64,000 nt of DNA from Paenibacillus rhizovicinus (GTDB lineage Bacteria > Bacillota > Bacilli > Paenibacillales > Paenibacillaceae): the NCBI RefSeq assembly GCF_010365285.1, contig NZ_CP048286.1:6126001-6190000 (forward strand). The letters run 5' to 3'. Position 1 is the first letter of the stretch. Every line of letters begins with the position of its first letter. Below, one piece after another: positions 9,509 through 21,691 of this stretch. Position numbers and translations under genes: made by a program. The notes beneath the pieces are model-generated. The model worked only from the letters and a program-made list of their open reading frames with translations. It searched no databases and was not told the DNA's origin.

Positions 9509-9535
9509 TCAGAACATTGCCTCAGCCATTATTCG

Positions 9536-9562
9536 AAAGCCGCATTCCATGCGGCTTTTTTA
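9536..9562 (+). terminator. Rho-independent terminator after the 196-aa hypothetical gene
   Basis: A 9-bp stem (9536-9544 with 9550-9558), 5-nt loop and T-tract, 28 bases after the stop codon. Confidence 0.85.
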
Positions 9563-9667
9563 TTTGTTTTCCACGATATGGACGAACACAGAAACGGATC
9601 GAGCTACATACCCTTATAATTGGAGTTTACGGTTCGTTCTCCTAACTTTTCGGGTTAAAAAAAACTA

Positions 9668-9696
9668 TTGCAATTATCCGCAATAGATGGTATTTT
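9668..9696 (+). promoter_or_regulatory. Probable sigmaA promoter of speD
   Basis: TTGCAA (9668-9673), a 17-bp spacer and TATTTT (9691-9696). The 7-bp inverted repeat 9665-9671/9680-9686 overlaps it and could be an operator or chance. Transcription from here would produce a leader of roughly 140 nt that contains the structured region at 9729-9834. Confidence 0.45.
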
Positions 9697-9728
9697 TATT
9701 TTCGTTGCAAAGAATATTAGGAACCAGG

Positions 9729-9834
9729 ATTCACTCAGGACATGGGAATGTTGCGAGAGGAAAGTCCCTCGGGCAGTGAATGACGTAGGTCCTAGCGGAT
9801 GAAATTACTAAACATTTTATTCCTAGGAAGGGGG
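9729..9834 (+). ncRNA. Candidate structured leader RNA / riboswitch of speD
   Basis: The leader can fold compactly. A 7-bp helix joins 9729-9735 and 9775-9781. Inside it a hairpin pairs 9754-9757 with 9768-9771 and 9759-9760 with 9766-9767. Bases 9737-9741 can pair with 9789-9793 to give an H-type pseudoknot. Bases 9790-9795 can instead pair with 9823-9828, which covers the start of the speD ribosome-binding site (9825-9834). The two pairings exclude each other, which is the layout of a translational riboswitch. I do not match it to a known class. The pairings are seen in the sequence; the switching and any ligand are inference. Confidence 0.5.
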
Positions 9835-9843
9835 AACCGAAAG

Positions 9844-10242
9844 ATGGAATACTCAACTTTCGGAAGACACGTAGCTGTTGACACATGGGGTGTGGATTTT
9901 GACCTGCTCAACAATGCGGAATTTTTACAAGCCCAAATGGTAGAGGCGGCTGAAGCTTGCGGCGCTACCGTACTCTCAGTGCAAGCCCAACAATTTGAAC
10001 CACAAGGGGCAACTGTACTCGTACTGCTGTCCGAAAGTCATCTTTCCATTCACACGTATCCTGAGAGAGGCTTCGCTGCTCTTGATTGTTATACTTGTGG
10101 AGAAACAGTGGATCCGCAGCTTGCGATCGACTACATGATGTCTGTTTTGAAACCGAAAATGATGCATGCTAAGAAGCTTGTCCGCGGCATGGGTGAATTA
10201 CAAGTCGTAGAAGCAGATATGAAGCAAGCCGAGCTTGTGTAG
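9844..10242 (+). CDS. speD: S-adenosylmethionine decarboxylase proenzyme
   Basis: SpeD decarboxylates SAM to supply the aminopropyl donor for spermidine synthesis. The 132-aa proenzyme self-cleaves before a serine that becomes the pyruvoyl cofactor; here it is Ser65 in 'LSESHLSIHTYPE'. 'YTCGE' supplies the conserved cysteine. The frame is open from 9799, but the N-terminus 'MEYSTFGRHVAVDTWG' matches the family, and an AGGAAGGGGG ribosome-binding site lies 9 bases before the ATG at 9844. It is a single-gene unit with its own leader and terminator. Confidence 0.93.
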   Translation: MEYSTFGRHVAVDTWGVDFDLLNNAEFLQAQMVEAAEACGATVLSVQAQQFEPQGATVLVLLSESHLSIHTYPERGFAALDCYTCGETVDPQLAIDYMMSVLKPKMMHAKKLVRGMGELQVVEADMKQAELV

Positions 10243-21302: not shown

Positions 21303-21590
21303 ATAAGGCAATAATTATTTTAAATGACGTTGATGGGGAAGAGTGGCAGGAATACCTTCAGAGAGCGGAACCGATTGCGCTGTGAGGTTCTGCAGGAATA
21401 TACTGTGACTGGTCGCCCCTGAGTCGCTGGAATGAAGCGAATTCCTTCGCGTAGTTCGGCCGGCAGCAGCCGTTATCTGTTAATAAGTTGTCGAATCGGC
21501 GCAGACCGTCGTTTCGGAACAAAGGTGGTACCGCGGAAGCCAGAACCTTTCGTCCTTTGCTATAAGGGCGAGAGGTTTATTTTTTTTTCG
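21303..21590 (+). promoter_or_regulatory. T-box leader of valS (Val specifier)
   Basis: The T-box sequence AGGTGGTACCGCGG is at 21523-21536 and is followed by a GC-rich hairpin (about 21544-21578) and a run of nine T residues, the transcription terminator. The stem I features GGGGAAGAGT and AGAGAGCGG are at about 21334-21368. A GTC codon at 21412-21414, just before CCCCTGAGT, is the likely valine specifier. Uncharged tRNA-Val should stabilise the antiterminator and let valS be transcribed. Confidence 0.93.
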
Positions 21591-21691
21591 ATTTACGAGG
21601 GGAAACGGTTTTCGATTAGCGATCAACGACCGGTCATGCGCGATTCGCGTCAGGAACCGGATGAGGACATATTATGGAGGTAGGAACTGAC

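Follow-up and report, generated by a model that had tools for sequence, protein, structure and literature searches.

Comparison with described leaders and RNA families

The SAM-II, SAM-III and preQ1-II riboswitches act on translation, with a segment of the aptamer capturing the Shine-Dalgarno (SD) sequence when ligand is bound. The mode of action that we propose for the speD leader described here is like theirs, but its helices and core sequences differ and it has no Rfam match. The one polyamine riboswitch in the literature searched, the validated spermidine riboswitch, is a variant SAM-I aptamer reported with 13 examples, which acts by transcription termination and has speD among its genes (PMC10853860, accessible sections). 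As portrayed there, it resembles the speD leader in being a Gram-positive polyamine-gene leader, speD included, and in switching expression OFF as we propose here; unlike that four-stem, terminating RNA, the speD leader lacks both a SAM-I match and a terminator, and it belongs to speD. The odc1 motif is, according to the accessible part of its description, an alphaproteobacterial leader of ornithine decarboxylase with one hairpin and a conserved 11-codon upstream open reading frame, or uORF (PMC8632094). The likeness lies in a polyamine-synthesis gene leader that combines a pseudoknot with sequestration of the ribosome-binding site (RBS), whereas the alphaproteobacterial host, the ornithine decarboxylase, the single hairpin and the uORF of that motif are all absent from the speD leader.

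In the available part of a study of Hfq in Bacillus subtilis, a 79-nt Hfq-associated RNA is entered as 'Unknown or speD leader region' (PMC3574147). The RNA concerned is a leader located between speD and gapB, and the entry gives no structure, conservation or function for it; this RNA and the speD leader may be one element. Beyond this one-line table entry, a search of the open-access literature (with few subscription journals and no preprints) found no description of a speD leader motif. The main text of PMC11109978 lacks 'spe', 'polyamine', 'spermidine' and 'decarboxylase' as whole words, and in the accessible part of PMC4448311 speD occurs a single time, in an E. coli table.

The original prediction had recognised no known class in this leader, and the comparison with Rfam 15 agrees: none of its families matched at the leader in a scan of the window (the whole stretch of DNA that was analysed, 64,000 nucleotides), and none matched at the motif in 15 representative loci (E ≤ 1). 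When the leader was searched permissively (E ≤ 10), five matches were returned, all far under the gathering scores. The covariance model of SAM-I, with its four-stem fold, found nothing in the window, in the leader (E ≤ 10) or in the 15 loci (E ≤ 1), and the same sequences gave no match to the SAM-II, SAM-III, SAM-V and preQ1 models. The apex of the window leader holds a string, GAGGAAAGTCC, reminiscent of RNase P RNA. An RNase P identity was rejected because the leader does not match the RNase P model and most relatives lack the string; RF00011 matches elsewhere in the source genome (44.7 bits against a cut-off of 97). The only family to reach its gathering score in the window was a T-box leader at 21321-21560 (RF00230, 93 bits), an ordinary case preceding an 892-aa ORF at 21674 that appears by eye to be valyl-tRNA synthetase-like.

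Layout of the speD leader

The gene behind the leader, speD (9844-10242, plus strand), encodes a SAM decarboxylase of 132 aa, as judged from its matches to TIGR03330 (141.8 bits, cut-off 75.65) and PF02675 (E 1.7e-36) and from solved relatives that include 1tlu. The leader, on the same strand, is bounded by a terminator-like stem at 9535-9559 and by the speD ATG at 9844. By eye, a probable promoter lies at 9668-9696 (TTGCAA, 17 nt, extended −10 TGgTATTTT); it was not among the sites called by the promoter scan of the window, and a TG-TATTTT-like string recurs upstream in relatives.

The outermost helix, P0, is formed by UAGGAACC (UAGGaACC, with one A bulged) at 9718-9725 and GGUCCUA at 9788-9794. 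It encloses P1, whose strands ATTCACT and AGTGAAT lie at 9729-9735 and 9775-9781. Two conserved internal loops separate these helices, AGG at 9726-9728 and GACGUA at 9782-9787, and both are candidate sensing sites. Above P1 is a variable apex (9736-9774), where other families carry a AAAGGGUUAGGACC...CCCCC core; in the window it contains the pyrimidine tract UCCCUC (9765-9770), a possible anti-SD for 9830-9835. Downstream, the hairpin P4 (9791-9827) pairs CCUAG at 9791-9795 with CUAGG at 9823-9827 and continues in an inner stem (9797-9805/9814-9822). It is followed by the SD region AAGGGGG at 9828-9834 (GGGGG core 9830-9834), with no T run. A start-codon hairpin, P5, then spans 9837-9863, with CCGAAAG at 9837-9843, CUUUCGG at 9857-9863 and the AUG in its loop. 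The window scan found no intrinsic terminator (a G+C-rich hairpin with a T run) between 9718 and 9844, and an AT-rich stem at 9665-9686 is the sole terminator-like feature that it lists for the leader.

As a single sequence the window leader folds at chance level (z = −0.63; 59 of 200 shuffles fold equally well or better), so folding energy by itself is no proof of structure.

Conservation and spread in Bacilli

In 80 loci fetched via SpeD, nearly all from Paenibacillus, the leader is almost invariant and its blocks follow the order UAGGAACCAGGAUUCACUCA, variable apex, AGUGAAUGACGUAGGUCCUAGCGGAUGAAAU, variable loop, AUUUUAUUCCUAGGAAGGGGGAACCG. Of 20 further loci, drawn from elsewhere in the order (other genera and families), 19 share these blocks with small changes, the exception being L128. 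Since near-invariant leaders hold little covariation, the comparison was extended to distant members. It used two covariance models with structures that we supplied ourselves: R1, for the Paenibacillus form, from the 37 sequences of alignment A1 (which includes the longer leader L079, missing from the near-home alignment), and R2, for the core reached by following speD into other families.

Among 398 Bacilli genomes, R1 matches the leader in 110 and R2 the core in 233. One or other model matches 262 of the 275 genomes with a strong SpeD, defined by a best AdoMet_dc E ≤ 1e-20 (a line drawn post hoc, below which 17 genomes fell), together with one other genome, G351, in which the match starts at base 7 of its contig and the gene side faces the contig end. 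The 13 strong-SpeD genomes that match neither model are G111, G121, G153, G172, G216, G255, G343, G378, G396, G405, G422, G458 and G467; in the three that were read (L202 in G405, L203 in G255 and L216 in G111) the sequence upstream of the gene is unrelated.

The distant R1 loci sit immediately upstream of speD in 54 of 54 cases checked. For R2, 99 of the 233 matches, chosen among the matches listed, were compared with the position of AdoMet_dc: 98 lie 54-85 nt upstream of it, and the 99th (L175 in G254) was separately shown to precede speD. R2 matched 4 of 299 genomes in a phylum sample, all four labelled as the same class, and viral contigs gave 0 matches to two exact leader patterns. The window itself matches R2 weakly (9725-9789, 21.7 bits), and in a genome-wide R2 search at E 0.001 the window leader was unmatched. 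The speD leader is thus a conserved folded RNA in most sampled Bacilli that have speD. As a riboswitch would do, it combines conservation with a covarying structure and precedes a single functional group of genes. The suggestion of a candidate undescribed riboswitch, made originally from the window, stands on firmer ground than was claimed for it, given a conserved structured speD leader that has two mutually exclusive states and no Rfam match; of the outcomes named at the outset as refuting it, neither a lack of conservation and covariation nor a known Rfam family was encountered. There is good support for a conserved and undescribed switch in front of speD, much more widespread than the original prediction could see.

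P1 and the core of the wider family

P1 is the 7-bp helix of the original prediction, present as stated. Across the wider family, six of its seven pairs show compensatory changes (alignment A3, comprising 34 of 42 stretches, with near-duplicates excluded). P1 and P2 together contain 45 two-sided changed cells, of which P1 alone accounts for 36; shuffles give 8.7, with 0 of 500 reaching 45, and a control in which the partner strand was slid gave 5-11. A second alignment, A4, agrees, but it was fitted to the structure and is so biased towards it.

Twenty speD regions were fetched as intended controls, 16 from R1-negative genomes and 4 being second speD copies. Fourteen of them carry a block, UUAAAGGGUUAGGACCUC-NNN-GGACUAACUU(U/G)CCCCCGUGG, flanked by two short complementary strands; the remaining six (L202, L203, L216, L218, L219 and L221) do not have it. 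The same block also forms the apex in 15 of the R1 loci that were read. The SpeD proteins behind core-type leaders are only about 40% identical to the window SpeD. The AAAGGGUUAGGACC core is missing in Paenibacillales, as is P0 in several core-type clades; members with both features (for example L164 and L217) suggest that the ancestor had both.

P0 and P4 as mutually exclusive structures

Pairs were counted in the 66 members of alignment A2 that remain from 68 rows once L128 and a spurious second match in L175 are removed. Each pair of P0 forms in 56 to 66 of the 66. In ten members, from one group of families, P0 takes the form AGGAUC/GAUCCU or a near variant, compensated and shifted and with the bulge gone. 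When the halves of P4 were exchanged among 29 families, 0 of 1000 swaps paired equally well, and the inner stem taken alone gave the same outcome (0 of 1000); L174 is the sole member without a predicted P4. On these comparative grounds P1 and P4 are established as helices, and P0 has good support.

P0 and P4 cannot form together, since both require CCUA. The predicted P0 and P4 states of the window leader lie about 3 kcal/mol apart (−39.0 versus −42.1 kcal/mol), and folding prediction for the growing transcript has P0 form first and be displaced later. Of the 66 members, 63 have a P4 state that is the predicted ground state or no more than 1 kcal/mol from it, and the P0 state is a median 4.0 kcal/mol above P4. 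Two exclusive structures are hence present, as in a riboswitch; their link to the SD is one of position and complementarity, the swap test for the pairing of the pyrimidine tract with the SD being non-significant.

These results recast several elements of the original prediction, whose observation is partly confirmed and whose interpretation is partly supported. The two mutually exclusive states are upheld, as P0 versus P4. A helix between TCCTAG (9790-9795) and CTAGGA (9823-9828), said to cover the RBS, exists in the window and its CCTAG/CTAGG hairpin passes the swap test; the covering of the RBS does not hold, because CTAGGA ends at 9828, beside the GGGGG core, and leaves that core uncovered. 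A hairpin at 9754-9771 is found in the window and in most Paenibacillus-type members, and distant members are without it. A pseudoknot between 9737-9741 and 9789-9793 has its letters in the window (AGGAC/GTCCT), but the pairing is not conserved and was rejected: of the 66 members, 13 can form the pair at 9738, 26 the pair at 9739 and 9 the pair at 9741, and the other two pairs, found in 57 and 61, involve common letters. The apex aligns poorly in these counts, yet AGGAC is plainly missing outside the order, and the Paenibacillus loci L026 and L036 lack it in leaders that are otherwise intact. Of the three pairings originally put forward, comparison therefore supports P1 and CCTAG/CTAGG and does not support the AGGAC/GUCCU pseudoknot.

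The Shine-Dalgarno site, the pyrimidine tract and the start-codon hairpin

The speD SD is GGGGG in 62 of 66 R1-type members, and GGGGG precedes the start in all 40 distinct core-type loci. For other ORFs, GGGGG is the best SD-like string in 1 of the window's 47 and in 3 of 248 at the 80 loci, a background estimated with a basic ORF script and without prediction of true starts. The tract above P1 reads CCCUC in Paenibacillales, CCCCC in most others and CUCCUC in short-apex clades. In the window, six pairs are predicted between UCCCUC and the SD. In two clades with an SD other than GGGGG the tract matches that SD, as in L174 (GAGGAGA/UCUCCUC) and L167 (nine pairs); in L129 and L130 just four tract-SD pairs remain. 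The swap test for this pairing was not significant, swapped partners pairing equally well in 476 of 2000, 272 of 1000 and 337 of 1000 exchanges, and tract and SD both show little variation. We consider the tract a likely anti-SD from its complementarity.

In R1-type members the start codon lies in the loop of a hairpin, CCG(A/G)AAG/CUUUCGG. Its coding half has ACU in 148 and UUC in 150 of the 151 loci that could be parsed out of 154, many of them close relatives, so that P5 fixes two SpeD codons (ACU UUC) across R1-type members. In SpeD genes with other leader types the corresponding threonine codon varies.

Proposed mechanism and alternatives

The leader probably controls the translated amount of SAM decarboxylase. 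Our preferred reading, to which we give somewhat better than even weight, is a cis-acting switch on SAM decarboxylase translation in Bacilli, most likely a metabolite riboswitch outside Rfam that turns translation OFF. With ligand bound, P0 and P1 would fold around the conserved loop and the CCCUC or CCCCC tract above P1 would pair with the GGGGG SD, turning translation off. In the absence of ligand, the more stable P4 would remove CCUA from P0 and so undo the sensor, and in this P4 state the GGGGG would be single-stranded and translation ON. The ligand would be a product of SpeD's own step or pathway. Since speD alone is controlled, decarboxylated SAM (dcSAM) is a first guess and spermidine a second, to be given little weight; the same restriction favours dcSAM, SAM or SpeD itself over a general spermidine signal.

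The two states might also be read in the opposite direction, with a ligand such as the substrate SAM stabilising P0 and P1, leaving P4 incomplete and freeing the RBS. This ON switch, which had been offered originally, is possible but judged less likely than OFF, and we rate it as rather unlikely. The exclusivity of P0 and P4 suits it, P4 being the predicted ground state to within 1 kcal/mol in 63 of 66 members; the 3' strand of P4 adjoins the SD, and short-apex clades place the AGG of an AGGAGG-like stretch inside P4. However, GGGGG itself stays unpaired in P4, and the conserved element able to mask it is the pyrimidine tract above P1, for which reason we prefer OFF. The locus L128 (G042, minus strand) has lost P0 and P1 and still has a P4 hairpin, in which changes compensate one another, along with GGGGG as its SD and P5. 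An ON switch of this kind would be locked off there; such a pattern would be expected if P4, with the SD outside it, were permissive and would be costly if P4 were the shut form, which argues, as a single case, for the OFF direction. A leader bound by protein, in which SpeD or another RNA-binding protein blocks translation and no small ligand is sensed, seems to us likewise rather unlikely. It would accord with speD being the sole gene controlled, with the near-invariance of P1 and P0 on both strands in Paenibacillales, as sequence-specific contacts would require, and with the listing of a B. subtilis speD-leader fragment as Hfq-associated (PMC3574147, the part available). One core nevertheless precedes SpeD proteins merely about 40% identical, the sequence of P1 changes freely in the wider family while its pairing persists, and a two-state design is typical of riboswitches.

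The stable hairpins P4 and P5 that flank the SD could point instead to a constitutive element for translation or mRNA stability that senses no signal, or to a temperature or ion sensor, but conserved exclusive pairings and unpaired loops exceed the needs of stability and make this very unlikely. We give hardly any credence to a leader peptide (e.g. AUG ACG UAG, or GUG AAU GAC GUA ... UGA, in the P1-P0 region) that senses polyamines via the ribosome. Small polyamine-related uORFs are known, the odc1 motif among them (PMC8632094, accessible part); here, AUG and frame are not preserved, with GGCGUA in several clades and GAGCAG in others, and the P1-P0 block is missing from several core-type leaders. 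A conserved uORF was accordingly rejected, start and frame not being kept across clades.

Returning to the translational OFF switch, its most conserved block differs among clades, which is odd for one small-molecule pocket. A fuller version of that reading, which we hold tentatively and a little short of even confidence, is a new riboswitch class, acting as general regulator of speD across Bacilli, that senses dcSAM (or spermidine or SAM) and shuts off translation by capture of an adapted GGGGG SD, with at least two architectures that keep P1 and the anti-SD tract. That the rest of the sensor has been exchanged, the AAAGGGUUAGGACC core in one architecture standing against the P0/P4 form in the other, is part of the same reading and equally tentative. 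If the ligand is dcSAM, the speD leader would be the first dcSAM sensor known to us. Present in 262 of 275 strong-SpeD Bacilli genomes, the leader would be a main control point of spermidine synthesis in the class, and the clade-wise exchange of conserved blocks around a constant P1 and two complementary tracts would offer a natural series for the rebuilding of an RNA switch.

Variant and duplicated leaders

Several members depart from the common layout. Nine apex bases are missing from L026 and L036, GGAC among them. By eye, L079 and L119/L124 contain short, incomplete copies of the 5' strand of P1 or of the bases after it, and L172, L178, L181 and L185 have a GAGC-like string before P0 whose complement, GCUC, occurs in the loop of P4; this group may have an additional contact there. 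Ten genomes of family f21 (G107, G145, G159, G185, G196, G206, G217, G250, G270 and G281) have two leaders each, and each one checked precedes a speD copy. In G185 the two leaders, L158 and L182, differ in type, one having a long CCCCC apex and one a short CUCCUC apex.
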